DNA of 21,515 nucleotides, from IMG/VR virus record IMGVR_UViG_3300023116_000414, positions 1-21,515 of that record; one strand, given 5' to 3'. Position numbers and translations under genes: made by a program. Below the pieces are notes generated by a model. That model ran no database searches. It saw only the letters and a program-made list of their open reading frames with translations, and was not told the origin of the DNA. Shown piece by piece: positions 3,132-15,516 of the stretch. This DNA comes from a virus. How positions within the stretch are numbered: position 1 is the stretch's first letter; each line of letters begins with the position of its first letter.

Positions 3132-3213
3132 ATAGTTGAAGACTATAGAAAGGCACAGATACAGAGACAAAAAAATATTTCAAACTAGAACACTAACGTT
3201 TGAACCTTATCCC

Positions 3214-3628: not shown

Positions 3629-3711
3629 AACCACATCGGATTCGTCCGAGTCAACCTAACTCCATAACGGTTGATCTTACACAACTTACCAAAACCAAAG
3701 GAAGGTAAATT

Positions 3712-4932: not shown

Positions 4933-4951
4933 CAATTAGACAACTGTCACA

Positions 4952-4974
4952 GGGGTCGCAAGACCCCCTTTTTT
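4952..4974 (+). terminator. Rho-independent terminator with GCAA tetraloop
   Basis: GGGGTC (4952-4957), loop GCAA, GACCCC (4962-4967), then C and six Ts. A GNRA tetraloop and a clean U-tract make this a very convincing terminator for the 406-aa gene. The -10 box of the next gene begins five bases after the U-tract. Confidence 0.92.
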
Positions 4975-4975
4975 G

Positions 4976-4984
4976 TGCTATAAT
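4976..4984 (+). promoter_or_regulatory. Extended -10 promoter (TGCTATAAT) abutting a terminator
   Basis: TG-C-TATAAT lies directly after the terminator U-tract. The -35 position falls inside the terminator hairpin. GACTCCAGTTCAATC follows, sharing the CAGTTCAA leader element with promoters further right. It drives the helicase gene and fixes its start downstream, at GTG 5006. Confidence 0.75.
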
Positions 4985-5005
4985 GACTCCAGTTCAATCA
5001 AACCT

Positions 5006-6187
5006 GTGATTCAACTCCGTCCTCACCAACAACGTGCAGTTGACGCCATGCTGAATCAGCAGAAGGGTCAAGTAATTGTTCCCACAGGCGGGGGCAAGAC
5101 TCTTTGCATGATTCAGGACACTCAGATTCATTTTGAATTGTTTGAGCGTCAGACTCATGTGGTTGTTGCTCCCCGTATCTTGCTTGCCGAGCAACTCTCT
5201 TCTGAGTTTCTTGAGCACATTGTTGACCCTATGGTGCGTGTTCTTCACGTTCATAGTGGTGAGACTCATCACGAGTCCACAACCAAAGCAGACTACATTT
5301 ACGACTGGGCAGTGCAATGCTACAAGCGTAACAAGATCATCTTCACCACCTACAACTCCTTGCATCGTGTTGTAGAGTCTGGCATCAAGATTGACACAAT
5401 CTATTTTGATGAGGCACACAACAGTGTGAAGCGTAACTTCTTCCCTCCCACTGAGCACTTCAGTCATGAGGCAGATCGTTGCTTCTTTTTTACTGCCACA
5501 CCAAAACATTCTGCCACTATCTTCAAACCTGGCATGAATGATGGTTCTGTCTATGGTCAGGTGATCTGCAAAGTCTCTGCTCCTGAGTTGGTTGAGGGTG
5601 GATACATTCTTCCTCCCAAGGTTGTTGTCAAGCAACTGGACATGGTACAGGACAAGCAGATGATTGCTGACCGTGATAGTCAGAATCTCCTGGATACGAT
5701 TGATGACCAGGAAGTCAAGAAGGTTCTGATCTGTGCTCGTTCTACGAAGCAGATTGTCAAACTTGTCTCTGAATCTGATTTCTGTCTGCAATTGGAGAAG
5801 CGTGACTATTCTTGGATGTATATCACCTCCAAGACTGGTGCTATCATTGATGGTCGCAAAGTTGATCGTGAAGAGTTCTTTGAGACTCTGAACGCTTGGG
5901 GTAAGGATTCCGCCAAGAAGTTTGTGGTTCTCCACCATTCTATTCTGTCTGAAGGTATCAATGTCAATGGACTTGAGGCAGTATTGTTCATGCGTAACAT
6001 GGATTACATTGGTATTCAGCAATCAATCGGGCGTGTAATCCGTCTAGGTGGCGCTGAGAAGACGTTTGGACTGGTTTGTGTTCCAGTCTATGACAAAGTG
6101 GGTATCAGCACTTCTAGGAGCGTACAGGCGGTAGTTGATACTGTCTTTGAGAAGGGTGATGCTGCTGTTAGTGTCATTCGGAGGTAA
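5006..6187 (+). CDS. SF2 DEAH-box DNA/RNA helicase (393 aa), UvsW/SSL2-like
   Basis: The helicase motifs appear in order: Q-motif region LRPHQQRAVDAM (residues 4-15), Walker A PTGGGKT (26-32), DEAH (135-138), TATP (163-166) and motif VI QSIGRVIRLG (339-348) with arginine fingers R343 and R346. This is an ATP-driven nucleic-acid translocase of the SSL2/UvsW type, acting on branched DNA or RNA in recombination, repair or origin switching. It is shorter than T4 UvsW (about 500 aa) and lacks extra N-terminal sequence, so I do not assign the symbol. GTG 5006 was chosen because TTG 4973 lies inside the terminator and promoter. The purine run GGAGG at the stop leads into the next gene. Confidence 0.92.
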   Translation: MIQLRPHQQRAVDAMLNQQKGQVIVPTGGGKTLCMIQDTQIHFELFERQTHVVVAPRILLAEQLSSEFLEHIVDPMVRVLHVHSGETHHESTTKADYIYDWAVQCYKRNKIIFTTYNSLHRVVESGIKIDTIYFDEAHNSVKRNFFPPTEHFSHEADRCFFFTATPKHSATIFKPGMNDGSVYGQVICKVSAPELVEGGYILPPKVVVKQLDMVQDKQMIADRDSQNLLDTIDDQEVKKVLICARSTKQIVKLVSESDFCLQLEKRDYSWMYITSKTGAIIDGRKVDREEFFETLNAWGKDSAKKFVVLHHSILSEGINVNGLEAVLFMRNMDYIGIQQSIGRVIRLGGAEKTFGLVCVPVYDKVGISTSRSVQAVVDTVFEKGDAAVSVIRR

Positions 6188-6189
6188 CT

Positions 6190-6333
6190 ATGAAGTGTAA
6201 AGTACAACTCTATGTGGCAGGTCAAGTCTTCTATGAAGAAGTGATCTGCCGTGACTACCAACATGCACGCAAGATAGCACTTGCTCGCAACCCTGAAGCA
6301 AAAATTATTAGTGTAACTGCTGTATTCAACTAA
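6190..6333 (+). CDS. Small conserved cyanophage protein (47 aa)
   Basis: ATG 6190 follows a GGAGG motif formed by the end of the helicase gene, an unusually good ribosome-binding site here. The product starts MKCKVQLYVAGQVFYEEVIC and continues RDYQHARKIALARNPEAKII, a beta-beta-alpha-beta pattern. I recall near-identical small proteins across T4-like cyanophages, with no known function. The stop overlaps the next start as TAATG. Confidence 0.85.
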   Translation: MKCKVQLYVAGQVFYEEVICRDYQHARKIALARNPEAKIISVTAVFN

Positions 6334-6908
6334 TGAAAAAGTCTAATCGCTGGCAAGAATACTGTGAGACTGCCTTCAATTCTATGAGGGCAAATGTACA
6401 CAACTGGGGTAAGCCTGAGTTCTATCGTCCACTCACACGCATTTATTATATGGGTGTGTTTGATTGCGGCACTCCAAATCATACTGGATTCATTAGTAAA
6501 ACTGCATATCAAAACAAATTGAGTCGGGGAAAGGTAGTGCATGATCATTACCTGTCACCCCAGTTTATTGGGCGAATGATTCTAGACAATCCAGACAAGT
6601 ATTTGGAAGACTTTGATGTATTCCGAGACATCTTTTGGAAGTCTTGTGGTACAATTATTGTAACCGCAGAGGAAAACATCAAACTCAGCTTACTGACTGA
6701 AAATAAGGGTAGTGAGTACCGAGTGCATGTTCCTACCAATCAAAAGTACACACACTTAGGAATTGATTTGCTCTCACGACCCACACAAGTTAAGTCCTGG
6801 ATCAATGCTTCCATGCAGAGTGTCACTGAGAATGAAGTGTACTTTCCTGATGACCTAATTAACTATGAGAAAAACTATCTTGTAAGAACAAATGGACTCT
6901 TTGTATAG
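6333..6908 (+). CDS. Conserved hypothetical protein (191 aa)
   Basis: This soluble alpha/beta protein is coupled to the preceding gene (TAATG). Notable segments are TRIYYMGVFDCGTPNHTGFI, KVVHDHYLSPQFIGRMILDN and TIIVTAEENIKLSLLTEN, then YRVHVPTNQKYTHLGIDLLS. The HDHYLSP motif has an HNH-like look, but the supporting residues are missing and I do not assign a nuclease. I recall similar proteins in cyanophages, without function. The last 17 bases overlap the next gene. Confidence 0.75.
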   Translation: MKKSNRWQEYCETAFNSMRANVHNWGKPEFYRPLTRIYYMGVFDCGTPNHTGFISKTAYQNKLSRGKVVHDHYLSPQFIGRMILDNPDKYLEDFDVFRDIFWKSCGTIIVTAEENIKLSLLTENKGSEYRVHVPTNQKYTHLGIDLLSRPTQVKSWINASMQSVTENEVYFPDDLINYEKNYLVRTNGLFV

Positions 6909-7053
6909 AATTGAAGAACTTTGCACAAATGATTGGAATGTAGTTGATGAACAGTCCAAGAAACTCACTAAAGAACAAGCAACGCAAAAACTTGAACAAC
7001 TCCTCGCAGAAGGATACAATCCCAACAGACTTCGTGCAGTCAGAGATAATTGA
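6892..7053 (+). CDS. Small conserved cyanophage protein (53 aa)
   Basis: The ORF runs from ATG 6892 to TGA 7051-7053. The sequence begins MDSLYRIEELCTNDWNVVDE, continues SKKLTKEQATQKLEQLLAEG and ends YNPNRLRAVRDN. The pattern 'SLY-IEEL...W...D...LTKE-...L-EGYNPNRLR-V' is one I recall from many T4-like cyanophages. It probably forms a small alpha/beta domain. The function is unknown. Both ends overlap neighbours, typical of a tightly packed operon. Confidence 0.85.
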   Translation: MDSLYRIEELCTNDWNVVDEQSKKLTKEQATQKLEQLLAEGYNPNRLRAVRDN

Positions 7054-7345
7054 TCTCCCACATGACTTTCCACATGTAGCACCAAAAGGAATGTACTATG
7101 AGCAGACAGAGTTTAAACGCAATGTTATTGCTATCTGGATTCATTACAAGCGTCGGTTTGATTACAATCTTGGTGATCCAGTTCGTTGTATCTGGGGATT
7201 CTATGACACAAAAAAACAGTGTTACTATGCGCCTATCAACTCCACCAAGCAAGGTAATCAGGTAGACATTGAGTCTACTACTCCTTATTCTTCAATGCAA
7301 CTTAATCTCAACCCATTAGAGTATGCCCTATACGCCAAAAGTTAA
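7034..7345 (+). CDS. Conserved cyanophage protein (103 aa)
   Basis: The conserved part begins EIIDLPHDFPHVAPKG and contains FKRNVIAIWIHYKRRFDYNL, then RCIWGFYDTKKQCYYAPINS. The in-frame ATG at 7091 would cut off the conserved DLPHDFPHVAPKG, so GTG 7034 is preferred; it overlaps the previous gene by 20 bases. I recall this family in cyanophages as small proteins of unknown function, basic and rich in aromatic residues. The C-terminus ends LNPLEYALYAKS. The next gene starts 22 bases before the stop. Confidence 0.78.
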   Translation: MQSEIIDLPHDFPHVAPKGMYYEQTEFKRNVIAIWIHYKRRFDYNLGDPVRCIWGFYDTKKQCYYAPINSTKQGNQVDIESTTPYSSMQLNLNPLEYALYAKS

Positions 7346-7580
7346 TGATTATGTCATATGGAAAAAAGAGTACGGTGGTGATGTGGAAGGATGGGTGTAC
7401 TTTATGTGCAATGACTACATCACCATTGAAGTTGGTGTAAAGGATAAGTGTGATGAGAACTATAGGGACTGCCCTATTCATAAAAAAACACACATCCTTG
7501 TGCTTTGTTACACCCAGTTCTGGCATCAGTTAGAGTATGTCACCAAGAGAGATTGTAAAACCTGCGATCCTGTGGTATAA
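7323..7580 (+). CDS. Conserved small beta-rich protein (85 aa)
   Basis: ATG 7323 begins MPYTPKVNDYVIWKKEYGGD, followed by VEGWVYFMCNDYITIEVGVK and then HKKTHILVLCYTQFWHQLEY. The order of strands (KVNDYVIW, EGWVYF, YITIEVGVK) suggests a small SH3-like or OB-like barrel. I recall this as a common cyanophage family of unknown function. The UAA stop lies inside the TATAAT box of the next promoter. It overlaps the previous gene by 23 bases. Confidence 0.82.
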   Translation: MPYTPKVNDYVIWKKEYGGDVEGWVYFMCNDYITIEVGVKDKCDENYRDCPIHKKTHILVLCYTQFWHQLEYVTKRDCKTCDPVV

Positions 7581-7581
7581 T
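7573..7581 (+). promoter_or_regulatory. Extended -10 promoter overlapping a stop codon (TGGTATAAT)
   Basis: TGG-TATAAT followed by TGAC. The UAA stop of the 85-aa gene (7578-7580) is part of the hexamer. The next ATG (7605) is 23 bp downstream of the box, the same spacing as other promoters here. Confidence 0.65.
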
Positions 7582-7604
7582 TGACCCGTAATCCTATAGA
7601 CAAA

Positions 7605-7838
7605 ATGAAGTACCTGTACATTGTTGATCACTTTTGCCCATTCCCTACCTCTGAATACGGTGGTTTGTGGAATGTAATTGCTCAAGATGATGAGGAGTGT
7701 TTTGATCTGATCACAGAACATGATCAGGAGTTTAATACAGAATACTACGGTGTTCTGCGTGAGCACATTCAAGGTGCAAGAGTCTACGGTCTTTCCGAGG
7801 ATCTTGATTCATGTGTTGTGGAATCCTTTACGACCTGA
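7605..7838 (+). CDS. Hypothetical small acidic protein (77 aa)
   Basis: ATG 7605 is preferred to TTG 7581, which sits on the -10 box. The sequence starts MKYLYIVDHFCPFPTSEYGG and continues LWNVIAQDDEECFDLITEHD. The N-terminal strand then 'DHF-PFP-SEYGG' followed by 'V-A-DD-EC-DLI' looks like a small alpha/beta domain that recurs in phages. It is strongly acidic. A terminator follows after 23 bases, so the gene may be a one-gene unit with its own promoter. Confidence 0.78.
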   Translation: MKYLYIVDHFCPFPTSEYGGLWNVIAQDDEECFDLITEHDQEFNTEYYGVLREHIQGARVYGLSEDLDSCVVESFTT

Positions 7839-7861
7839 GGACAGTTTGATAAGTGGCACAC

Positions 7862-7885
7862 GGGGGGTTTGATGCCCCCCTTTTT
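7862..7885 (+). terminator. Terminator hairpin, G6/C6 stem with T5 tract
   Basis: GGGGGG (7862-7867), loop TTTGATG, CCCCCC (7875-7880), then TTTTT. It is preceded by AAGTGGCACA, also found before the hairpin at 11384. The loop supplies TTGATG, 16 bp before a -10-like box. Confidence 0.88.
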
Positions 7886-7896
7886 GATGCCATACT
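7869..7896 (+). promoter_or_regulatory. Promoter overlapping the terminator (TTGATG-16-CATACT)
   Basis: TTGATG in the hairpin loop (7869-7874) and CATACT (7891-7896), preceded by TGC, are 16 bp apart. The leader to ATG 7947 is about 50 nt long and A/C-rich, with no Shine-Dalgarno sequence. Confidence 0.5.
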
Positions 7897-7946
7897 AACG
7901 GAGTGATCGGGACACACCTGATCCTCACACCAAACTCACTTCAAAC

Positions 7947-8360
7947 ATGGGCACTCGCTCTCGCATCGGATACCAACTCAAGAATGGTATCGTTTCCTCC
8001 TATCACCACTGGGATGGTTATCCCGAATGGTTGGGTAAGACTCTGGTTCAGCACTACAACACCGCTGAGAAGGTCACTGCACTGATTGATGGTGGTGACA
8101 TGTCCTCTTGCTGGTCTAACAGCATCTGGGGTGAAGATCTTCCCGAAGGTGAATACTCTCCTGAGTATTACACTGCCCGTGGTGAAGACATGAATGATGT
8201 TGCACCTCAACTCGCTGAGTCTTTCACTGAGTACATGGAGCAGTGCAGCAACTGTGATGCAGAGTATGCTTACATCTTCAACGATGGTGAGTGGTTCTGC
8301 TATGATTCTTATGAGACTCCTGGCAAAGTCGTTGACATCCCCGAACCCACTCCTGTATAA
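7947..8360 (+). CDS. Conserved phage protein, MGTRSRIG family (137 aa)
   Basis: The N-terminus MGTRSRIGYQLKNGIVSSYH followed by HWDGYPEWLGKTLVQHYNT, then ALIDGGDMSSCW and later EYAYIFNDGEWFCYD, matches a family I recall from many phages and some bacteria, with no known function. Conserved W, H, D and C residues suggest a compact alpha/beta fold, not an extended scaffold. It is acidic. The gene has its own terminator-promoter module upstream, and its UAA stop is embedded in the next TATAAT. Codons favour C at third position more than in the genes at 1-7300. Confidence 0.85.
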   Translation: MGTRSRIGYQLKNGIVSSYHHWDGYPEWLGKTLVQHYNTAEKVTALIDGGDMSSCWSNSIWGEDLPEGEYSPEYYTARGEDMNDVAPQLAESFTEYMEQCSNCDAEYAYIFNDGEWFCYDSYETPGKVVDIPEPTPV

Positions 8361-8361
8361 T
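8354..8361 (+). promoter_or_regulatory. -10 promoter overlapping a stop codon (TGTATAAT)
   Basis: CCTGTATAATA is shared with the site at 3619-3629. Here too the UAA stop (8358-8360) is inside the hexamer. ATG 8385 follows 23 bp after the box. Confidence 0.55.
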
Positions 8362-8384
8362 AGATCATGAGTTGAGAGGTCTTC

Positions 8385-8540
8385 ATGACTTGCGAAGTTG
8401 AACTTGAAATCGGTATCCCCGATTACTATCGTGAAGACCTTCACTCCTATGAATGGGAGAAAGTCCTTGACAATGCCATCCAGCGTTCTCAAGAACTTGG
8501 TGTTTCACTTGATTTCTATCTCCTTGAGTTCTCACAATGA
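8385..8540 (+). CDS. Small acidic hypothetical protein (51 aa)
   Basis: The ORF runs from ATG 8385 to TGA 8538-8540. It begins MTCEVELEIGIPDYYREDLH and continues SYEWEKVLDNAIQRSQELG. It is predicted to have one strand followed by helices and is acidic. It is the first gene after a stop-embedded promoter and is coupled to the next gene by ATGA. No family with a known function is recognised. Confidence 0.75.
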   Translation: MTCEVELEIGIPDYYREDLHSYEWEKVLDNAIQRSQELGVSLDFYLLEFSQ

Positions 8541-8719
8541 ACGACATTCTGATCAAAGACTGTGCTCTTGACAAGTCCATCAAGATCTCATTCAATGAGT
8601 TCTATGATCTTAAGATTGGTCTTGAATGTGCTATTGACGAGTACAGCTCTGTGAACATGAGTAAAGAAGTCAAAGACTTCAAAAAACTCATGAACAAGAT
8701 CAACAAGTTCATCAACTGA
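8537..8719 (+). CDS. Small helical protein (60 aa)
   Basis: ATG 8537 overlaps the preceding stop (ATGA). The sequence MNDILIKDCALDKSIKISFN continues to EFYDLKIGLECAIDEYS and a lysine-rich C-terminal helix (KEVKDFKKLMNKINKFIN). It is probably two amphipathic helices. The function is unknown. Coupling to its neighbour suggests the two products work together or are needed in equal amounts. Confidence 0.75.
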   Translation: MNDILIKDCALDKSIKISFNEFYDLKIGLECAIDEYSSVNMSKEVKDFKKLMNKINKFIN

Positions 8720-8749
8720 TTTCCGTTCACCCAACACACCATTTTCACC

Positions 8750-8905
8750 ATGACCATGATGTACGACCAAGTTGACTTTGACGTTCGTGACTACATTGAA
8801 GATTCCTGGGAGTCTTTCCTTGAGTCTGCTGAAGATGACTGGAATCCCACTGGTATTGTTGAGAGTCTTGATGCTGAAACTCTCAAAATGCTAGAAAACT
8901 TCTAG
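8750..8905 (+). CDS. Small strongly acidic protein (51 aa)
   Basis: ATG 8750 begins MTMMYDQVDFDVRDYIEDSW, then ESFLESAEDDWNPTGIVESL. Roughly a third of the residues are D or E, with very few basic ones. ATG 8759 is an alternative. No Shine-Dalgarno sequence is seen; the leader is A/C-rich (CCCAACACACC). Closely followed by a strong terminator, it ends a three-gene unit. A DNA-mimic role would fit the charge but is only speculation. Confidence 0.68.
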   Translation: MTMMYDQVDFDVRDYIEDSWESFLESAEDDWNPTGIVESLDAETLKMLENF

Positions 8906-8927
8906 AAACAGTGTAGTTTTCGGAATA

Positions 8928-8965
8928 AATGCTCTACATATAGTAGAGCATTATTTCGTTTTTTT
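8928..8965 (+). terminator. Rho-independent terminator, 10-bp perfect stem
   Basis: AATGCTCTAC (8928-8937), loop ATATA, GTAGAGCATT (8943-8952), then ATTTCG and seven Ts. The U-tract starts six bases after the stem, slightly far, but the structure is otherwise canonical. Confidence 0.88.
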
Positions 8966-8985
8966 GTATTTTGCGATTTTTGCTC

Positions 8986-9153
8986 GTGAATAAAAAAGTT
9001 AAACTGGTTCTCGCTATTCAACAAGTTGACAACTTGATTAGCATGAGTGATGGACTTGATTACACTCAGTACCTGAAAAATAATCTATACCCTGTGAAGT
9101 ACGAACTGCAACGGCAGTTTTCCCTACTTGACAGAAATCGTTTGCCTGACTAG
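8986..9153 (+). CDS. Small helical protein (55 aa), GTG start
   Basis: GTG 8986 begins (M)NKKVKLVLAIQQVDNLISMS and continues DGLDYTQYLKNNLYPVKYEL, ending RQFSLLDRNRLPD. The upstream alternative TTG 8971 lies close behind the terminator. The pattern 'L-AI-QVDNL...YLKN-L-PVKYELERQ' recalls small cyanophage helical proteins. No separate promoter is clear between the terminator and the gene, so it may depend on read-through. The function is unknown. Confidence 0.72.
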   Translation: MNKKVKLVLAIQQVDNLISMSDGLDYTQYLKNNLYPVKYELQRQFSLLDRNRLPD

Positions 9154-9179
9154 AATCAAACCACTCGCACGGAGTTCTC

Positions 9180-9368
9180 ATGGATCTTACTGTCTCCAAA
9201 AACAAAAGCAAGAAACTCACACGATACCGCATCACTTTGGATGTGATGATTGATCGTACATCATGCGAACCACCAACCCAATGGAACTGGAAAGACCTCA
9301 TGGAGTTGGAAGGTAAAGAGCAAGTCAATGATGTCTACATTGAAAACCTTGGGGACTACAAAATCTAA
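9180..9368 (+). CDS. Small beta-rich protein (62 aa)
   Basis: ATG 9180 begins MDLTVSKNKSKKLTRYRITL, then DVMIDRTSCEPPTQWNWKDL and MELEGKEQVNDVYIENL. The lysine-rich N-terminus and alternating pattern 'LTRYRITLDVMID' indicate beta strands; the C-terminal half is acidic. I recall similar phage proteins of this length with a conserved 'NW-DL-ELEGNE-V' segment, without a known function. The stop overlaps the next start (TAATG). Confidence 0.77.
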   Translation: MDLTVSKNKSKKLTRYRITLDVMIDRTSCEPPTQWNWKDLMELEGKEQVNDVYIENLGDYKI

Positions 9369-9505
9369 TGGAAGAAACACAATTCTTTGAGATTCTGGGC
9401 ATTGATGTAAAAGAGGGGGATACAGAGACCATGTTTTACTATGAAGAGTATTTCTACGATGACTCTTCGGTTGGTGACTTCATGGTTGAGTCCTATGATC
9501 CCTGA
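9368..9505 (+). CDS. Small acidic aromatic protein (45 aa)
   Basis: ATG 9368 is coupled to the previous stop (TAATG). The product reads MEETQFFEILGIDVKEGDTE, then TMFYYEEYFYDDSSVGDFMV. It is highly acidic and rich in F and Y. It is the last gene before a 93-bp gap containing the next promoter. No family is recognised. Confidence 0.68.
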   Translation: MEETQFFEILGIDVKEGDTETMFYYEEYFYDDSSVGDFMVESYDP

Positions 9506-9570
9506 AGTCAAGGTTCTCTAGACAGTTTGTGAACTGGTACAAAATCGCATTGCCCCATCCAATCTCTCTC

Positions 9571-9596
9571 TATACTGACATCAGTTGAGGCAACTG
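9571..9596 (+). promoter_or_regulatory. Promoter (TATACT) with start-proximal leader hairpin
   Basis: TATACT at 9571-9576 is followed by GACATCAGTT. The leader forms a perfect hairpin: CAGTTG (9582-9587), loop AGG, CAACTG (9591-9596), ending two bases before ATG 9599. It belongs to the CAGTT leader family. No G-run hairpin precedes it, unlike most other modules. Confidence 0.65.
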
Positions 9597-9598
9597 CC

Positions 9599-9811
9599 AT
9601 GACTCACTTCACGATTGAACAACTCAACACCAACAACTTGTCCAGTTCTTTCAATGTGGGCAAGTATCTTCGCAGTGCCAGTATTGAGTCTGAACTTGCA
9701 GATGTTCTCAGAAAGAACAATGTTAGTGAAGATGTAATCGCACAATGCTGTGAAGTTGTTGTGGATCACTTTGCAGTAGCGATGTTCCTAGAGGAAACTG
9801 CTGGAAACTGA
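9599..9811 (+). CDS. Small hypothetical protein (70 aa)
   Basis: ATG 9599 lies 23 bp after the -10 box and two bases after a leader hairpin. The sequence MTHFTIEQLNTNNLSSSFNV continues GKYLRSASIESELADVLRKN, with a C-terminal helix containing two adjacent cysteines (IAQCCEVVVDHFAVAMF). It is mostly helical. No family is recognised. A 3-bp gap separates it from the tiny membrane ORF that follows. Confidence 0.73.
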   Translation: MTHFTIEQLNTNNLSSSFNVGKYLRSASIESELADVLRKNNVSEDVIAQCCEVVVDHFAVAMFLEETAGN

Positions 9812-9814
9812 GTC

Positions 9815-9910
9815 ATGACCACATTCTTCATCTACTGGATTCTCGCATCTTTAATTGGTGCAGGCATCAACTACGTTATCATGAGGGACACTGACAATGA
9901 CCGTGACTAA
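9815..9910 (+). CDS. Tiny membrane peptide (31 aa)
   Basis: The ORF runs from ATG 9815 to TAA 9908-9910. It starts MTTFFIYWILASLIGAGINY and ends in a charged tail (MRDTDNDRD). Residues 4-23 form one transmembrane helix. It overlaps the next gene by 14 bases, as real neighbours do here. Small size limits certainty, but the sharp hydrophobic/charged division is not expected by chance. Confidence 0.6.
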   Translation: MTTFFIYWILASLIGAGINYVIMRDTDNDRD

Positions 9911-10100
9911 AGAACAACTGATTGATGCACTCTACCATGAGTATGTTTTTCTGTGTCATGATGATTTTGATCCAGACGAGGATCCGACTCCTGAAGAGTA
10001 CCTTAAGATGATAAAAGAAATGTCCTATGATGAGTTGATCTTTGAGGCATGTGTTGATGAAGAGTTTGGTCTTGATGATTACATGGAGGCATGGGGGTGA
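9897..10100 (+). CDS. Small strongly acidic protein (67 aa)
   Basis: ATG 9897 begins MTVTKEQLIDALYHEYVFLC, then HDDFDPDEDPTPEEYLKMIK and EMSYDELIFEACVDEEFGLD. D and E dominate. The 'DPDEDPTPEEYLK...LSY-EL' segment recalls small phage proteins of unknown function. It overlaps the upstream membrane peptide and may be made with it. It could be a DNA mimic or a host-factor binder; the sequence alone does not decide. Confidence 0.76.
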   Translation: MTVTKEQLIDALYHEYVFLCHDDFDPDEDPTPEEYLKMIKEMSYDELIFEACVDEEFGLDDYMEAWG

Positions 10101-10231
10101 CAGGTAAAGAGAAACTTGTCTTCATTGGTTCTTTTGTTTGGTTTCTTCACTGGGGCACATGTCTTACATCACTCATGATGGATACGGTTATTCTAAGAAA
10201 CTCTGTGAGGATGTTACCTCTTGGTTTCTGA
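10091..10231 (+). CDS. Possible overlapping membrane micro-ORF (46 aa)
   Basis: An ATG at 10091 (or GTG 10097) opens a frame that fills the gap before the metallopeptidase gene and then overlaps that gene's first 73 bases. It reads KEKLVFIGSFVWFLHWGTCL and then SLMMDTVI, a plausible single membrane span after a short basic start. The overlapping part is in another frame of a real gene, so the tail may be meaningless. Offered as a possibility only. Confidence 0.3.
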   Translation: MGVTGKEKLVFIGSFVWFLHWGTCLTSLMMDTVILRNSVRMLPLGF

Positions 10232-10635
10232 ATAGTTTCTTCCCACGTCACAACATTACGGTGGACATTGTGCATCGTGGTCTGAAACGTGAGTGTGCTT
10301 ATGGTTACTGTGATGTTGTGGGTGAGTATTATCGTCCACGGCATTTCTTGATTGAACTTGACACACACATGCCGAAGGAGTTGTATGTAAAAACTCTTTT
10401 GCATGAACTCACGCACCTGAAGCAGTGGGTGATCGGTTCACTACGCTCAAAGCGTGGCAAAATGTATTATGGACAAGAATGTATAGAAGACATTGAGTAT
10501 TGGTATAAACCACATGAGATAGAAGCAAGAGAAATGGAAGAAGAATTGTACCACGACTATTTGATAGATAAGGGGCTTGTGACAGTTGAGGAAGTGTCCC
10601 ATTCCTTCCCGAACCGTCTGATGAGGGTACTATGA
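10159..10635 (+). CDS. Zinc metallopeptidase-like (HExxH) protein (158 aa)
   Basis: ATG 10159 is preferred to TTG 10138. Residues 77-90 read YVKTLLHELTHLKQWV, an HExxH zincin helix with H82, E83 and H86. A likely third ligand lies in KPHEIEAREMEEE (E120 or E122). The segment RHFLIELDTHMPKELY before the helix is an edge strand plus helix, as in SprT-like and small phage zincins. The protein would bind zinc and might cleave a peptide, but catalytic function is unproven and the domain is minimal. It could act on a host protein early in infection or in virion maturation. Confidence 0.83.
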   Translation: MSYITHDGYGYSKKLCEDVTSWFLNSFFPRHNITVDIVHRGLKRECAYGYCDVVGEYYRPRHFLIELDTHMPKELYVKTLLHELTHLKQWVIGSLRSKRGKMYYGQECIEDIEYWYKPHEIEAREMEEELYHDYLIDKGLVTVEEVSHSFPNRLMRVL

Positions 10636-10662
10636 TTCAGAGGTAATCAAGGGAACACCATC

Positions 10663-10866
10663 ATGCAGTTCCAAGTTACTTCCATTGAGTTTGACTTTGA
10701 TGATGACTCTTTCTATCCCATCACTGAAGAAGAACAGAATGATGTGTATGATGATTACATCGGCACATTCTGGGAGGCAGATGATGGTGATGATCTAGTT
10801 GAAGAGATCACATGTGCCTCTGGTTGGTGTATCAAGTCCATTGACTATCGTCACGTTCTTAACTGA
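10663..10866 (+). CDS. Small acidic conserved phage protein (67 aa)
   Basis: ATG 10663 begins MQFQVTSIEFDFDDDSFYPI and has TFWEADDGDDLVEEITCASG followed by WCIKSIDYRHVLN. The pattern 'F-VTSIEFDFD...W-ADD-DDLVEEIT-ATGWCIKSIDY' is one I recall in several phages and some bacterial genomes, with unknown function. Strand-helix-strand is likely. It stands 27 bp after the metallopeptidase gene. Confidence 0.8.
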   Translation: MQFQVTSIEFDFDDDSFYPITEEEQNDVYDDYIGTFWEADDGDDLVEEITCASGWCIKSIDYRHVLN

Positions 10867-10871
10867 AACTC

Positions 10872-11120
10872 ATGCCATTCTTTGATCCTGGTAACGGTTC
10901 CCGAATGTACATTCCCAAAAGTGACTGGAATCGTGGAACATACCGTGAACTCAAGGCAATTCTAAATGAACTGCCTGAAGAGTATCTTGACCAGACTGCA
11001 ACAATTCTTGTAGATGGTGATCAAGATGATGACTATCATGATGTAAGATCTATTGGGTTCACTGGTCCTGCATCTCAGGTTCTGGATCCCAATCATTTCT
11101 ACATGACAATCTCCGCCTGA
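10872..11120 (+). CDS. Small acidic conserved protein (82 aa)
   Basis: ATG 10872 begins MPFFDPGNGSRMYIPKSDWN, then RGTYRELKAILNELPEEYLD and QTATILVDGDQDDDYHDVRS. The helix 'ELKAILNELPEEYLDQTATIL' followed by an acidic strand is typical of a conserved group of phage and bacterial proteins in which 'LPEEALD-T--V' precedes a beta strand; no activity is known. It starts five bases after the previous stop, in the same transcription unit. Confidence 0.8.
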   Translation: MPFFDPGNGSRMYIPKSDWNRGTYRELKAILNELPEEYLDQTATILVDGDQDDDYHDVRSIGFTGPASQVLDPNHFYMTISA

Positions 11121-11157
11121 AATGATTTCACTTCCCAACCCAATCAAGCACACCAAA

Positions 11158-11373
11158 ATGTCTCTCAACACTCAACAACTCGCAAAACTCAAGTATGACT
11201 ATTGCGAGCGCATTATTGATGGCATGGACATGGATACCCTAGTCCAGATGGCACATGATCTACTGATGGATGCCTATGCTGATTCAACCGAAGAGGACAT
11301 GAAGGAAGAGATTCTGGATCTCTACGATGAAGAGTATCTGGAAGATCTCATGGAGAGTGTGGCAGAGAGTTAA
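11158..11373 (+). CDS. Small acidic helical protein (71 aa)
   Basis: ATG 11158 begins MSLNTQQLAKLKYDYCERII, followed by DGMDMDTLVQMAHDLLMDAY. ATG 11122 would add 12 residues, but the extra part (ISLPNPIKHTK) looks like translated A/C-rich leader. The protein is helical, with an acidic C-terminus (EEILDLYDEEYLEDLMESV). I recall relatives in cyanophages with 'QLAKLKYDY-E-IVDGMDMDTLV'. The function is unknown. A terminator follows directly. Confidence 0.8.
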   Translation: MSLNTQQLAKLKYDYCERIIDGMDMDTLVQMAHDLLMDAYADSTEEDMKEEILDLYDEEYLEDLMESVAES

Positions 11374-11383
11374 GTGGCACAAC

Positions 11384-11407
11384 GGAGGGGTTGCATCCCT
11401 CCCTTTT
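11384..11407 (+). terminator. Terminator hairpin with short T-tract
   Basis: GGAGGG (11384-11389), loop GTTGCAT, CCCTCC (11397-11402), then C and TTTT. It is preceded by AAGTGGCACAACGG, nearly the same as before the hairpin at 7862. The loop carries TTGCAT. Confidence 0.82.
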
Positions 11408-11446
11408 GTCTCTATACTGACTTCAGTTCAACCAACCACCTGAACT
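11391..11446 (+). promoter_or_regulatory. Promoter fused to terminator (TTGCAT-16-TATACT) plus leader hairpin
   Basis: TTGCAT (11391-11396) in the terminator loop and TATACT (11413-11418) are 16 bp apart. The leader has AGTTCA (11425-11430), a ten-base A/C loop and TGAACT (11441-11446), a perfect six-bp hairpin ending one base before ATG 11448. The 23 nt at 11423-11445 recur exactly at 12782-12804. Confidence 0.68.
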
Positions 11447-11447
11447 C

Positions 11448-11771
11448 ATGAGCATCGTCACTTTTCCTTCCATGTGGGGTGAGTACACTGTGACCCAGGC
11501 GACTCTCTGCCAGGAACCGTACATGTACTCCACCGCCAATCGTCGGTCTCAGAACTACATCTACTTTGAGACTGCATCCAATTCGGAAACGGTGCAGATC
11601 GTGACGAATTGCATCTATGAGGACACCGAGACTGGTGAGTGTACCACTCGGAGCAACTGGGGCACCCGTAAGTGTGTGCTGAAACCCCAGGCACGGGAGA
11701 TCTGGAAGATGTATCGTGCCAATGGTTACTCTCTGGATGTGAAGAAGATCAGCGGCAAGGAACTGGAGTGA
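11448..11771 (+). CDS. Hypothetical beta-rich protein (107 aa)
   Basis: ATG 11448 is set by the upstream promoter and leader. The protein begins MSIVTFPSMWGEYTVTQATL, then NRRSQNYIYFETASNSETVQ and a C-terminal helix LKPQAREIWKMYRANGYSLD. The strand-rich first half has cysteines at about 21, 55 and 64; the last third is helical. From here to 14470 codons end in C or G visibly more often than in the first 7 kb. No family is recognised. Confidence 0.75.
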   Translation: MSIVTFPSMWGEYTVTQATLCQEPYMYSTANRRSQNYIYFETASNSETVQIVTNCIYEDTETGECTTRSNWGTRKCVLKPQAREIWKMYRANGYSLDVKKISGKELE

Positions 11772-11778
11772 TGTGACA

Positions 11779-11807
11779 GTAGGGGGAGTGTCCACCATTC
11801 CCCCTAC
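11779..11807 (+). terminator. 9-bp hairpin after gene, no T-tract
   Basis: GTAGGGGGA (11779-11787) and TCCCCCTAC (11799-11807) pair perfectly around an 11-base loop. No U-run follows, so it may stabilise or pause the transcript and not terminate it fully. It sits in the same place as the terminator hairpins of the other modules. Confidence 0.65.
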
Positions 11808-11852
11808 ACCCCACAAAATCGTCTATTGTACCTAAGTGTTCGGGATTCAATC

Positions 11853-12047
11853 ATGATCATCACCACCTTTGAGCAAGCACTCCTTGCATCTGACTACATC
11901 TATGATCCTCAAGTGGGATCGTACATGAAAGAAGATTCAAACGGTGATCTTCACACCTACATGAATGTTGAAGGTGCTGATTGGATCTACGAAAAGTATG
12001 ACATCAATGATGTTGAACTTGTCTCCAAACCTTTCACTCTAGACTGA
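11853..12047 (+). CDS. Small acidic protein (64 aa)
   Basis: ATG 11853 is preferred to TTG 11826, which lies in the leader. The sequence MIITTFEQALLASDYIYDPQ continues VGSYMKEDSNGDLHTYMNVE and GADWIYEKYDINDVELVSKP. It is predicted alpha then beta. A degenerate -10-like TATTGT (11824-11829) lies 23 bp before the start, matching the spacing of other modules. The stop overlaps the next start (TGATG). The function is unknown. Confidence 0.75.
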   Translation: MIITTFEQALLASDYIYDPQVGSYMKEDSNGDLHTYMNVEGADWIYEKYDINDVELVSKPFTLD

Positions 12048-12163
12048 TGAAAACCATCGGGATCATCTACCTCATTTCCTTCGTGCTATTTGCACCAGTT
12101 CGTTATCACACGGGTGAAGCATTTCACACGGTTGGTAACTTCATTCAAAACACTGCAAAATGA
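12047..12163 (+). CDS. Small membrane protein (38 aa)
   Basis: This ORF is coupled to the previous stop (TGATG) and overlaps the next start (ATGA). MKTIGIIYLISFVLFAPVRY gives one transmembrane segment at residues 3-18, followed by HTGEAFHTVGNFIQNTAK. I recall very similar short proteins ('KTIG-IYLISFVLFAPVRYHT') in T4-like cyanophages, without a function. Exact coupling on both sides supports reality. Confidence 0.75.
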   Translation: MKTIGIIYLISFVLFAPVRYHTGEAFHTVGNFIQNTAK

Positions 12164-12360
12164 TCATGGCACCTGAACTTTACGAGCACAACGTCAAACT
12201 GATGTCCGAGCATTTGCTAGGCAAACTGTTTGATCATGTTGAAAACCATGACATTCAATCTGCCGATGCAATCTATGAAGAATGGGTTGTAGATGGTAAA
12301 GATCCAGAAGAGGAAGATTACGTTTTTCTCTTTATTCAAAATTTTAATCTTGCATCGTAA
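12160..12360 (+). CDS. Small acidic helical protein (66 aa)
   Basis: ATG 12160 overlaps the membrane protein stop. The product reads MIMAPELYEHNVKLMSEHLL, then GKLFDHVENHDIQSADAIYE and a D/E-rich C-terminus ending IQNFNLAS. It is probably a helical bundle of two or three helices. The stop overlaps the following start (TAATG). No family is recognised. Confidence 0.74.
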   Translation: MIMAPELYEHNVKLMSEHLLGKLFDHVENHDIQSADAIYEEWVVDGKDPEEEDYVFLFIQNFNLAS

Positions 12361-12515
12361 TGTCTTACACCTACATTGAGAATCAACAAATTGAAGAGAT
12401 TTCTGGGTGCTGGGAGGACTATCTGACTCCTGATGAACATCTGGATGCACTGGATGCAAAACTCTATGAACAGTCCCAAGGATACCGACCCTGGCGAACT
12501 GTGAACAACTATTAA
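12360..12515 (+). CDS. Small acidic protein (51 aa)
   Basis: ATG 12360 is coupled to the preceding stop (TAATG). It begins MSYTYIENQQIEEISGCWED, then YLTPDEHLDALDAKLYEQSQ and ends GYRPWRTVNNY. It is helical and acidic, with a W/R-rich tail. Last in a four-gene coupled chain starting at 11853. The function is unknown. Confidence 0.72.
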   Translation: MSYTYIENQQIEEISGCWEDYLTPDEHLDALDAKLYEQSQGYRPWRTVNNY

Positions 12516-12546
12516 CGGTCTGGTCACGGTTCCGCTCTTCACGCTG

Positions 12547-12552
12547 TAGGAT
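12547..12552 (+). promoter_or_regulatory. Weak -10-like box (TAGGAT) with GTTCAACC leader
   Basis: TAGGAT is preceded by TG and followed by ACGTTCAACCGCAAGG, a partial match to the shared leader. The spacing to ATG 12576 is 23 bp, as at other sites. It is the most degenerate member of the set. Confidence 0.35.
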
Positions 12553-12575
12553 ACGTTCAACCGCAAGGCACTCCC

Positions 12576-12764
12576 ATGATCCTCTCAATGGCATCCGATC
12601 TCACCACCCGTCGCATTGTGTGGGCAGGTCGCATGACTGACGATGCACCTCAGACCTGTGGCATTGACCTCCCTCTGACTGTTGAGTCCGAGTGGTTGGC
12701 GGGTGCCTATGCTGAGAAGTATGCTCACGAAGCGACTCATGCTCGTGACCTCTGCTGCTTCTGA
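12576..12764 (+). CDS. Small hypothetical protein (62 aa)
   Basis: ATG 12576 begins MILSMASDLTTRRIVWAGRM, then TDDAPQTCGIDLPLTVESEW and LAGAYAEKYAHEATHARDLC. The C-terminal helix contains HEATH, which superficially resembles HExxH, but nothing else supports a metalloenzyme. Codon use is GC-rich. There is no overlap with neighbours: it has its own weak promoter, and the next promoter starts five bases after its stop. Confidence 0.68.
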   Translation: MILSMASDLTTRRIVWAGRMTDDAPQTCGIDLPLTVESEWLAGAYAEKYAHEATHARDLCCF

Positions 12765-12768
12765 TCCG

Positions 12769-12804
12769 TGCTACACTTCTCTCAGTTCAACCAACCACCT
12801 GAAC
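12769..12804 (+). promoter_or_regulatory. Extended -10 (TGCTACACT) and duplicated leader
   Basis: TGC-TACACT (12769-12777) starts just after the upstream stop. The 23 nt at 12782-12804 are identical to 11423-11445. GTTCA and TGAAC can pair around a ten-base loop just before ATG 12807. Confidence 0.6.
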
Positions 12805-12806
12805 CC

Positions 12807-12989
12807 ATGAAGACCTTCACCGTCACCCTGACCGAGGACCAGATTGATACGATCCTCGCGGCAATGTCTGAATACATTCTGCACGACGATCCTGAGATTG
12901 ATCCTGAGGACCTGATCGGTGGCACTCCTGTTGCCGAGCGTGTGGAAGCGATTGAAGACATCCTGCTCGCCGCTGCTCGGGGGAACTGA
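12807..12989 (+). CDS. Small acidic helical protein (60 aa)
   Basis: ATG 12807 was chosen because GTG 12768 would translate the promoter leader. The sequence MKTFTVTLTEDQIDTILAAM continues SEYILHDDPEIDPEDLIGGT and PVAERVEAIEDILLAAARGN. A strand followed by 'LTEDQIDTIL-AL' and two further helices is a pattern seen in many small phage proteins of unknown function. It is strongly acidic. Two bases separate it from the next gene, so they are probably co-transcribed. Confidence 0.77.
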   Translation: MKTFTVTLTEDQIDTILAAMSEYILHDDPEIDPEDLIGGTPVAERVEAIEDILLAAARGN

Positions 12990-12991
12990 TC

Positions 12992-13153
12992 ATGCAAAGC
13001 AACCACCTGACGGACTACATTCGTTCTAAGGGTCGGGACATTCCGACCACTCCCGCTCCCAAGCGTACCTTTCCCTGCACCATCGGTCTCCGCACGTTTG
13101 AGACTGAGGAAGAATACGAGGAGGCACTCGCAGACTTCCTGAATGGTATGTGA
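12992..13153 (+). CDS. Small hypothetical protein (53 aa)
   Basis: The ORF runs from ATG 12992 to TGA 13151-13153. It begins MQSNHLTDYIRSKGRDIPTT, then PAPKRTFPCTIGLRTFETEE, ending in an acidic helix (YEEALADFLNGM). The basic N-terminus and acidic C-terminus give it a split charge. It lies two bases after its upstream partner. Family and function are not recognised. Confidence 0.68.
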   Translation: MQSNHLTDYIRSKGRDIPTTPAPKRTFPCTIGLRTFETEEEYEEALADFLNGM

Positions 13154-13202
13154 CAGTTCGAGGGCTGGCCCCTGGTGACCGTGTTTGGTCGTTGGGGGTG
13201 CC

Positions 13203-13232
13203 TATACTGACTGAAGTTCACCACTAACGAAC
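13203..13232 (+). promoter_or_regulatory. Promoter (TATACT) with GTTC/GAAC leader
   Basis: TATACT at 13203-13208 is followed by GACTGAAGTTCACC. GTTC and GAAC can pair around ACCACTAAC just before ATG 13234, a shorter version of the leader hairpin. Confidence 0.6.
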
Positions 13233-13233
13233 A

Positions 13234-13527
13234 ATGTTCAGCACCACTCTCACCGATTCCCGCTCCTTCGGCAACACCTACCAGTGGGCGATCCTGTCTG
13301 TTCTCCCGATGGAGAATGGCACTGACAGCGGTCTCCGTCCCACTGACATCAACGAAGAACTGGGGATGCCGAATGAAGCACGGACCACTGTCTCCATGCT
13401 CCTGAAGGACATGGCAAAGCGTGGACTGGTGATGCGTCATGAACTTGGACCTCGCTGGGTGGAGTACACTCGTCTGCTGCCACTGCGTAAGCGTGAGCGC
13501 ATCGCCCGATACCTCAAGGGAATGTGA
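13234..13527 (+). CDS. Predicted winged-helix DNA-binding protein (97 aa)
   Basis: Residues 35-44 (RPTDINEELG) and 50-65 (RTTVSMLLKDMAKRGL) form a helix-turn-helix. Residues 66-81 (VMRHELGPRWVEYTRL) form a beta wing. The layout matches MarR/ArsR-like winged helices: recognition helix, 'M--RGLV-R', then wing. The C-terminal helix is basic (LRKRERIARYLKGM). It would bind DNA and may regulate phage or host promoters. As a small wHTH inside the array of look-alike promoters, it is a reasonable candidate regulator of them; that link is inferred. A hairpin follows 11 bases after the stop. Confidence 0.78.
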   Translation: MFSTTLTDSRSFGNTYQWAILSVLPMENGTDSGLRPTDINEELGMPNEARTTVSMLLKDMAKRGLVMRHELGPRWVEYTRLLPLRKRERIARYLKGM

Positions 13528-13538
13528 ACAATGGTAAC

Positions 13539-13559
13539 GGGGGAGACAGAATCTCCCCC
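13539..13559 (+). terminator. 8-bp G/C hairpin between genes
   Basis: GGGGGAGA (13539-13546), loop CAGAA, TCTCCCCC (13552-13559). No U-tract follows. Same position and style as the other intergenic hairpins. Confidence 0.68.
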
Positions 13560-13568
13560 TGGACCGAC

Positions 13569-13599
13569 TAATGTAACTTCAGTTCAAACCAAGGACATG
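13569..13599 (+). promoter_or_regulatory. -10-like TAATGT and duplicated 24-nt leader
   Basis: TAATGT (13569-13574) precedes a leader at 13576-13599 that is identical, through the ATG, to 13997-14020. The -10 is weak, but the copied leader marks this as a regulatory module. Confidence 0.5.
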
Positions 13600-13935
13600 A
13601 CCACCACTCTTCAGCAACAGGCACAAGAGACCATTGAGGCGAATGTACTCAAGTGGAGTCTGATGATGTGTGATGCACTGACTCACAATGGACCTTCTGA
13701 TCGTTATTTCTACACTCTAGAATCAGGTCGGAAGTATCATAAAATCTTCATGCACATCGGTGATCGTCGTGATTCTATTCACGCCTTCATTGATAAGAAG
13801 ACTGGTGAAGTGTATAAACCTGCATCAATCAAGGCACCTGCAAAAGGTGTACGCTATGACCTGCGACTGATTGAGCAAAGAGAATGGTTGATGGAACATG
13901 CAGACTGGGCAGGAAGTTACCTGTACGCACGGTAA
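13597..13935 (+). CDS. Conserved phage protein (112 aa), SIHAFIDKKTG family
   Basis: ATG 13597 begins MTTTLQQQAQETIEANVLKW and contains GRKYHKIFMHIGDRRDSIHA, FIDKKTGEVYKPASIKAPAK and EHADWAGSYLYAR. The core 'YHKI...RS-HAF-D-KTGEVYKPAS-KAPAK-VRYDL...ADW-G-YLYAR' is one I recall from many phages with an unknown function; it is basic and might bind nucleic acid. Upstream in-frame residues TSVQTKDM come from the copied leader and are not thought to be translated. It has its own hairpin and promoter on either side. Confidence 0.82.
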   Translation: MTTTLQQQAQETIEANVLKWSLMMCDALTHNGPSDRYFYTLESGRKYHKIFMHIGDRRDSIHAFIDKKTGEVYKPASIKAPAKGVRYDLRLIEQREWLMEHADWAGSYLYAR

Positions 13936-13955
13936 GGACAATCGGTAGACTGTCC

Positions 13956-13983
13956 ACAGGGGGGATTGCCAAAGTCCCCCTGT
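13956..13983 (+). terminator. 8-bp hairpin ACAGGGGG/CCCCCTGT
   Basis: ACAGGGGG (13956-13963) pairs with CCCCCTGT (13976-13983). The loop GATTGCCAAAGT contains TTGCCA. There is no clear U-tract. Confidence 0.7.
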
Positions 13984-14020
13984 CACCCTTATTATGACTT
14001 CAGTTCAAACCAAGGACATG
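13966..14020 (+). promoter_or_regulatory. Promoter fused to hairpin (TTGCCA-18-TATTAT) and duplicated leader
   Basis: TTGCCA (13966-13971) lies in the hairpin loop, 18 bp from TATTAT (13990-13995). The leader at 13997-14020 is identical over 24 nt to 13576-13599, in front of an unrelated gene. Confidence 0.58.
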
Positions 14021-14239
14021 GACCTCTGCTCAACCACCTGGAACGACGGCACCAAGATCCCTCAACTGACTTCCATTCAGCAACTGAAGGAGATGCTCCG
14101 CAACTACGATGGCACGTTCCTGAAGGTGGACGAAGCGTATGTGGTGGACGTGAACCTGGAGGAGATGTGGTTTGACTCTCGCCAGGAACTGCTCCGCAAC
14201 ATGTCCTGGCACTGCTTCAACTGGGGGATGGAGTTCTGA
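14018..14239 (+). CDS. Small hypothetical protein (73 aa)
   Basis: ATG 14018 is chosen by analogy with the identical leader at 13597; ATG 13994 lies on the -10 box. The sequence MDLCSTTWNDGTKIPQLTSI continues QQLKEMLRNYDGTFLKVDEA and ends RNMSWHCFNWGMEF. It is alpha/beta and acidic, with a tryptophan-rich end. It is a single-gene unit between two hairpin modules. The function is unknown. Confidence 0.73.
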   Translation: MDLCSTTWNDGTKIPQLTSIQQLKEMLRNYDGTFLKVDEAYVVDVNLEEMWFDSRQELLRNMSWHCFNWGMEF

Positions 14240-14250
14240 AGAAATGTGAC

Positions 14251-14271
14251 GGGGACCACTCCACGGTCCCC
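14251..14271 (+). terminator. 7-bp hairpin GGGGACC/GGTCCCC
   Basis: GGGGACC (14251-14257), loop ACTCCAC, GGTCCCC (14265-14271). No strong U-tract. It is preceded by GTGAC, as before the hairpin at 11779. Confidence 0.7.
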
Positions 14272-14281
14272 TCCTGACCTT

Positions 14282-14300
14282 TATACTGGCATCAGTTCAG
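14282..14300 (+). promoter_or_regulatory. Promoter (TATACT) with CATCAGTTCAG leader
   Basis: TATACT (14282-14287) follows the hairpin by ten bases. GGCATCAGTTCAGACAACC follows. ATG 14315 is 27 bp after the box. Confidence 0.6.
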
Positions 14301-14314
14301 ACAACCACACACCG

Positions 14315-14470
14315 ATGAACAAGGAACTTCACGCACAGTGGCAGCAAGCGTTCGCAGAGTGGATGCTGCACAAGACAGACGCCACTGCATCCAAGGAACT
14401 CTCAACCCGCCAAAGGTTCCTTGCAACGAAATACAACAAGCACCCACGAGCACTCACCCTGACCCACTAG
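14315..14470 (+). CDS. Small basic protein (51 aa)
   Basis: ATG 14315 begins MNKELHAQWQQAFAEWMLHK, then TDATASKELSTRQRFLATKY and ends NKHPRALTLTH. Unlike most neighbours it is basic and helical. The open frame upstream (from 14246) would run through the hairpin and promoter, so the ATG is clearly the better start. The last residues are low-complexity and may not matter. The function is unknown. Confidence 0.66.
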   Translation: MNKELHAQWQQAFAEWMLHKTDATASKELSTRQRFLATKYNKHPRALTLTH

Positions 14471-15514: not shown

Positions 15515-15516
15515 AT

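Follow-up and report, generated by a model that had tools for sequence, protein, structure and literature searches.

A palindromic box at a fixed distance from the -10 element marks a repeated, predicted promoter cassette between small genes of T4-like cyanophages

Phages of the T4 type carry promoter-early stem-loops (PeSLs), in which an early promoter is combined with a terminator and which are thought to mediate gene shuffling (Arbiol 2010 and Comeau 2014, as reported in PMC4503421 and PMC3950731). In this study, we describe a related cassette in the IMG/VR contig IMGVR_UViG_3300023116_000414, which was analyzed over its whole length of 21,515 bases and is referred to as the window. The cassette combines a 24-bp dyad, TGTGMCAGTT-N4-AACTGKCACA, with a -10-like hexamer and a short leader that runs to the next start codon. 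To judge from a UvsW-like helicase, a baseplate gene of the gp25/gp6 type at 19137 and its best DNA matches, which are Synechococcus phages, the window is derived from a T4-like cyanophage. An earlier study considered PeSLs to be sparse in a stretch of S-PM2, where it identified two stem-loops and a single early promoter (PMC4503421); its stem-loop at 11369-11391, downstream of p038, starts where an S-PM2 dyad (11349-11370) ends. As far as PeSLs are described in these sources, the cassette resembles them in that a predicted promoter can be fused to a stem-loop between small variable genes and is repeated before unrelated genes, broadly in the same phage group. The window cassettes are likewise found only at 4.9-14.3 kb, between small genes of a T4-like phage, which is a setting of the PeSL type. 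However, the stem-loop of the cassette is optional and is situated inside a fixed spacer of 29-31 bp, a 24-bp dyad and a conserved leader are added, and T4 lacks the dyad, as KVP40 essentially does.

A second comparison is offered by the middle promoters of T4, which depend on MotA and AsiA. The MotA box of T4 is short and lies near -30. The cassette shares with these promoters an upstream box, putatively bound by a protein, in place of a -35 element, and a position on replication-type genes; however, its conserved upstream element is a symmetric 24-bp dyad centered approximately 41 bp before the -10 element, near -53. Cyanomyoviruses lack both motA and asiA (PMC2984593). In cluster K mycobacteriophages, the start-associated sequence (SAS) and its extended form (ESAS) also stand directly before the starts of numerous small genes that are unrelated to one another, an inverted repeat precedes half of them, and the SAS resembles a ribosome-binding motif (PMC3203893). 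Their sequences are unrelated to ours, however: the cassette carries no GGGATAGGAGCCC-type sequence before the start, its leader consensus is CTTCAGTTCAAACAAA, and only 12% of its A/C-rich leaders contain a Shine-Dalgarno-like core. Repeated intergenic promoter modules have also been described in the haloviruses HF2 (PMC8707807) and HGTV-1 (PMC3950731), those of HGTV-1 including both an inverted repeat and a TATA box, but these promoters are archaeal and unrelated in sequence. The half-site AACTGGCAC and the word 'cyanophage' occur together in no paper of the searched literature, and an earlier mention in Arbiol 2010, Comeau 2014 or the Syn9 transcriptome study of Doron 2016 is possible. As far as the searched literature shows, this kind of element is already known from PeSLs, and what is new is the box together with its spacing and spread.

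The dyad occurs at eight gene borders of the window (strong copies at 4930, 7839, 9520, 10580, 11774, 13151 and 13936 and a weak copy at 11360), in each case 27-32 bp before a -10-like hexamer. With no more than three mismatches, it was found at five places, or nine when both strands are counted, whereas 0.12 would be expected by chance; a position weight matrix added the copies at 11774 and 13936 and the weak copy at 11360. No strong dyad was found in the window outside 4.9-14.3 kb. Composites of the dyad and the leader scored 19.5-52.8 at six borders (-10 elements at 4979, 9571, 11413, 13203, 13990 and 14282), and the best composite among 40 shuffles did not exceed -1.5. Hairpins with a stem of at least 6 pairs and at least 5 GC pairs numbered 13, eight of which are situated at the cassette borders, compared with 1.9 ± 1.6 (maximum 5) in 30 dinucleotide shuffles. 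These results bear out the initial annotation of the window, which had proposed a repeated intergenic cassette with -10-like boxes and CAGTTCA-type leaders and had expected it to be enriched over shuffled sequence. The annotation had also remarked that the bases before the hairpins are alike; the likeness is real (AAGTGGCACA and CTGTCACA), but these bases are the 3′ half of the dyad, which had passed unrecognized, as had the strong dyad at 7839 and the hairpin-free cassette at 10580. A general promoter scan of the window returned 46 promoters with 41 expected, which is not significant; therefore, a specific model of the cassette was needed.

Beyond the window, loci were picked by motif, so the proportions reported here are proportions among loci rather than population frequencies. 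When viral contigs were scanned for TATAMTGACWYCAGTTSA, at least 118 stretches matched, nearly all just before a start codon, and conservation ran on beyond the searched letters of the leader into AACAAA. The full unit in IMG/VR comprises the dyad, a spacer of 29-31 bp, TATAMTGACTTCAGTTCAAACAAA and a start codon approximately 30 nt after the -10 element, and at least 901 copies in 214 loci stand ahead of unrelated, mostly short genes. Among the matches listed, TGMCAGTT-N4-AACTGKCMCA lies upstream in 82 of 88 non-redundant sites selected by their leader, 29-31 bp before the -10 element, and the six sites without it resemble chance matches to the leader. In the pooled leader set, the dyad was present at 140 of 151 sites, compared with none in shuffles, and the spacing was 29-31 bp in 135 of the 140. 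When the dyad only was used as the query, -10 hexamers peaked sharply 28-31 nt downstream and TTGACA-like hexamers 5-7 nt downstream, each against approximately 0.5 per position elsewhere; among the matches listed, 68 of 85 dyads had a correctly spaced -10 element on at least one side (background 13%). Since many of these predicted promoters have no CAGTTCA leader, the dyad marks a promoter class wider than the leader-bearing cassette. The CAGTT of the leader had been considered as a third half-site, and this idea was abandoned, since palindrome promoters commonly occur without such a leader. Twelve of the 85 dyads (L129-L244) are flanked on either side by a -10 element at the right distance and may thus belong to divergent promoters. 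At four loci with one gene context (L140, L152, L163 and L241), late promoter boxes of the TATAAATA type follow the dyad at approximately 50 bp, and early and late starts perhaps overlap there.

Dyads are common in several T4-like cyanophages and scarce in others. A BLAST search of the leader against 50,697 phage records matched 45, nearly all from Synechococcus or Prochlorococcus phages. In whole genomes, dyads with up to three mismatches were counted beside a reversed-pattern control, which gave 0-2 throughout. The counts (dyad/control) were 12/1 in S-PM2, 17/0 in P-SSM2, 24/0 in S-CRM01 and 12/1 in S-T4; poorer genomes were Syn9 (6/0), P-SSM4 (4/0), S-RIM8 (4/0) and Sf-CH5 (2/0), and single dyads were found in S-SM2 (1/0), S-TIM5 (1/1) and HTVC008M (1/0). 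The whole genomes of T4, Syn5 and Ma-LMM01 contain none, and that of KVP40 contains none apart from one three-mismatch match on the other strand. The count for S-T4 is inflated, with ten of its 12 dyads in a repeated stretch of the record. In that record (NC_048049), the dyads of 2402-8304 recur at 173971-179873, at an offset of 171,569 bases, so that the record contains either a several-kb terminal repeat or an assembly overlap that was left unclosed. Dyads cluster in regions of small open reading frames (ORFs) in S-PM2, P-SSM2 and S-CRM01. The initial annotation had suggested scanning this phage and other cyanophages, and the cassettes indeed proved to be confined to the small-gene region of the one and present in many of the others. 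Two scans of host genomes with leader-containing patterns gave no matches, the dyad alone not having been searched there.

In 508 of 629 cassettes, an ORF starts at a median of 30 nt after the -10 element (interquartile range 28-32), and the unique cassette ORFs have a median length of 76 amino acids. Most of 110 such proteins match nothing named; the named matches are mainly to peptidase, CobS, helicase and clamp loader proteins, while sigma region 2 and a PNKP-type protein occur once each. The 25 most frequent PHROG families include no structural one. The box is situated ahead of cobS in S-PM2, P-SSM2 and S-CRM01, and both S-PM2 and the window have it ahead of a helicase gene. In S-CRM01, 56-68 nt separate the end of the dyad from the start codon on both strands, and transfer RNA (tRNA) genes are also preceded by dyads. 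Because this distance holds on both strands and because dyads precede tRNA genes, the function of the dyad appears to be transcriptional. Expression of the cassette genes would presumably be early.

The predicted terminator hairpin is an optional insert that fits into a fixed promoter frame, with the promoter remaining constant. A spacer hairpin below -8 kcal/mol was present in 36% of the 629 non-redundant cassettes, compared with 9% after shuffling, and 28% of the cassettes with such a hairpin have a T-run of at least four. Clear spacer hairpins occur in P-SSM2, such as CAACCCCCTTTCAGGGGGTTTTTTATTGC between the dyad and TATAAT. In the window, a GC hairpin accompanies 8 of 12 borders. All seven hairpins named in the initial annotation exist, but a T-run follows only those at 4952, 7862 and 11384 and is missing at 11779, 13539, 13959 and 14251. 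The annotation regarded the cassette as giving each small gene its own stop and start of transcription. An own start is standard and an own stop is not, and the cassette does not precede every small gene, since multi-gene runs remain (e.g., 6190-7838). None of the cassettes matched an Rfam covariance model at E ≤ 0.5. S-CRM01 (NC_015569) carries a gene annotated as a NusG-type antiterminator at 87219-87800, and such a gene could be relevant to phages with many intergenic hairpins.

Evidence of modularity comes from cassettes that share a contig. In one IMG/VR record (G002, 101-118 kb; locus L257), a single strand carries fifteen cassettes in 17 kb, with one promoter per gene and, for the most part, no terminator. 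Several leader variants coexist in this genome. The L257 cassettes at 13362 and 13734 are identical over 69 bp, and both of their flanks are unrelated. Across 28 contigs, the identity of 97 same-contig pairs of cassettes reaches 70% or more, and that of both flanks stays below 45%. Near-identical cassettes with unrelated flanks are the mark expected of PeSL-type spread and suggest modular shuffling.

We consider it fairly probable that, in T4-like cyanophages (Kyanoviridae), each cassette works as a self-contained module for starting transcription, built from a dyad-bound dimeric regulator, the host polymerase and an optional terminator. According to this model, a dimeric regulator would bind the dyad, centered near -53 from the predicted start, and contact the host RNA polymerase, most likely activating it and substituting for the -35 element that the leader-type cassettes lack. 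A sigma-70-type host polymerase would then start approximately 6-7 nt after TATAMT and transcribe a short A/C-rich leader of the AGTTCAAACAAA type, which in most cases has no Shine-Dalgarno core, immediately ahead of the gene. The fixed spacer between the dyad and the -10 element could hold a GC hairpin that ends the transcript of the preceding gene, and the same cassette before unrelated genes would provide short homologies for swapping or duplicating a gene together with its switch. The sequences themselves establish the anatomy, the fixed spacing, the missing RNA covariation, the distribution among lineages and the modular placement, whereas binding of a protein, activation, termination, timing and recombination are predictions.

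Chance likeness among ordinary host-type promoters and terminators, or a shared base composition, deserves practically no weight. Although the -10 boxes are sigma-70-like, this explanation is already refuted by the counts of dyads (9 vs. 0.12), hairpins (13 vs. 1.9) and composites in the shuffles, and hundreds of copies occur elsewhere. The arms of the dyad bear on the choice between DNA and RNA. Four of the five CAGTT/AACTG pairs showed no excess pairing, pair 7/12 showed a slight excess (p 0.003-0.02), and the most variable pair, 5/14, paired below chance in both sets examined (30 vs. 39 and 52 vs. 64). Because the arms do not covary and the spacing varies by about a base, a DNA site is favored, and the dyad is best read as the site of a dimeric regulator. 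That it is instead an RNA hairpin, acting as a second terminator or a processing signal, would suit its palindromic form and the annotation of several dyad spots in S-CRM01 as Rho-independent terminators. However, covariation is absent and one pair anti-covaries, no T-run follows the dyad, the spacing to the -10 element is fixed within a base or two, and a single dyad can act for a promoter on each side, as at 12 of 85; we rejected this reading for want of covariation and hold it to be very improbable. It is also quite unlikely that the cassette is mainly a recombination joint of the PeSL type, kept as homology for gene shuffling with its promoter and terminator coming along. The L257 pair, the 97 pairs and the restriction of cassettes to variable small-gene regions agree with this idea, but conservation across distant phages follows promoter geometry, also before cobS and the helicase, and needs a regulatory reason. 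Moreover, a role in recombination is compatible with the start module and does not exclude it.

The dimeric regulator at the dyad is probably an activator. This view rests on the leader-type copies, in which the -35 match is 2.45 of 6 compared with 2.23 in shuffled sequence and thus no real -35 element exists, and on the center of the dyad, which leaves the core promoter free. Alternatively, the dyad may be the operator of a repressor that closes the promoters later in infection, a possibility that we regard as unlikely. A symmetric site at a fixed position would suit a repressor, and palindrome promoters with a good -35 element should work unaided; however, the dyad ends approximately 42 bp upstream of the predicted start and overlaps neither the -10 element nor the start, where most repressor sites lie, and the leader-type copies would be weak on their own. 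Several observations weigh against the activated start module. A good -35 element (at least 5/6) is present in about a quarter of the palindrome promoters without the leader, which means that the dyad is not necessarily the site of an activator. Four leaders of the window (12547, 12772, 13569 and 14282) have no recognizable dyad, some Kyanoviridae (S-SM2, Sf-CH5, S-RIM8 and P-SSM4) have only 1-4 dyads, and the search for a regulator within the window gave no general factor, its sole winged-helix protein having one phage relative. This 97-amino-acid winged-helix-like protein (13234-13527, plus strand) is encoded directly behind a cassette promoter and matches Pfam MarR_2 below the cut-off (E 8e-4), with weak IclR and TrmB matches too; its sole relative, in Synechococcus phage S-SRM01, is 54% identical and unannotated, and it was rejected as a general regulator because relatives exist only there. 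The MarR protein of P-SSP7 was also set aside, as that phage is T7-like, with a downstream activator site and no matching motif (PMC9692554).

The individual borders of the window, all on the plus strand, illustrate how the parts are combined. The dyad TGACAATTAGACAACTGTCACA (4930-4951), 27 bp before its -10 element, is followed by the terminator-like hairpin GGGGTCGCAAGACCCC (4952-4967) and CTTTTTT, then by TATAAT with the leader GACTCCAGTTCAATCAAACCT (4979-5005); this leader suggests a GTG start at 5006 for the UvsW-like helicase (ORF 4973-6187). The strong dyad GGACAGTTTGATAAGTGGCACA (7839-7860) stands 30 bp before CATACT, with a terminator-like hairpin and TTTTT between them (7862-7880) and a long, divergent leader (7891-7946, -10-like box included) ahead of the ATG at 7947. 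No hairpin occurs with the dyad AGACAGTTTGTGAACTGGTACA (9520-9541), which lies 29 bp before TATACT and its CATCAGTTGAGGC leader (9571-9598; ATG 9599), or with TGACAGTTGAGGAAGTGTCCCA (10580-10601), which is within the 3′ end of the preceding gene and is followed 29 bp on by TATGAT and by an ATG at 10663. The degenerate dyad TGGCAGAGAGTTAAGTGGCACA (11360-11381) retains an intact right half and precedes a terminator-like hairpin with TTTT (11384-11402) and TATACT with the leader GACTTCAGTTCAACCAACCACCTGAACTC (11413-11447; ATG 11448). The dyad TGACAGTAGGGGGAGTGTCCAC (11774-11795), 28 bp before TATTGT (11824), is overlapped by a GC hairpin without a T-run (11779-11807). Dyads were not found at a weak -10-like TAGGAT with a GTTCAACC leader (12547-12575; ATG 12576) or at TACACT with a CTCAGTTCAACCAACCACCTGAACCC leader (12772-12806; ATG 12807), the latter seen by eye below the scan threshold. 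The dyad TGACAGTTCGAGGGCTGGCCCC (13151-13172) lies 30 bp before TATACT and its GACTGAAGTTCACC leader (13203-13233), which lead to the ATG at 13234 of the winged-helix-like protein, and a long weak hairpin with G-T pairs and no T-run (13168-13199) is situated in between. Of the four copies described in the initial annotation as lacking a clear hairpin, those at 9571 (scored) and 12772 (by eye) are upheld, the one at 12547 is weak, and the border at 13203 has the weak hairpin just mentioned. A GC hairpin without a T-run (13539-13559) precedes a weak TAATGT and a degenerate CTTCAGTTCAAACCAAGGAC leader (13569-13596; ATG 13597), without a dyad. The dyad GGACAATCGGTAGACTGTCCAC (13936-13957), 32 bp before its -10 element, is followed by a GC hairpin with TTGCCA in the loop and no T-run (13959-13981) and by TATTAT with a CTTCAGTTCAAACCAAGGAC leader (13990-14017; ATG 14018). 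The last border has a GC hairpin without a T-run (14251-14271) and TATACT with a CATCAGTTCAGACAACC leader (14282-14314; ATG 14315), with no recognizable dyad.

Other features of the window lie outside this arrangement. Two perfect consensus promoters, TTGACA-N18-TATAAT, at 3599-3628 and 8332-8361 (plus strand), have no dyad and represent a second promoter class in the same genome. A 276-amino-acid protein (1365-2195, plus strand) has a MazE/AbrB-like C-terminal segment (a weak match, E 9e-5) and may bind DNA. A long non-coding stretch ahead of a DUF7227 gene (15000-15738) contains no tRNA and no Rfam family and folds in no unusual manner; a mir-103 match within it (15366-15445) is spurious.

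Early and middle control in cyanomyoviruses without MotA, AsiA, Alt and ModA has been called 'still unclear' (PMC2984593). We propose, tentatively and with slightly more doubt than conviction, a shared regulon in which a dimeric protein, encoded by the phage or the host, would act on the 24-bp dyad near -53 to activate dozens of one-gene promoters in place of MotA/AsiA, and in which the switch would spread as a mobile cassette. With its fixed geometry and, in some genomes, its dozens of copies, the box offers a bait for fishing out the regulator and lets starts be predicted for many genes of unknown function. It may also serve as a marker of the swapping of small host-takeover genes among abundant marine viruses.

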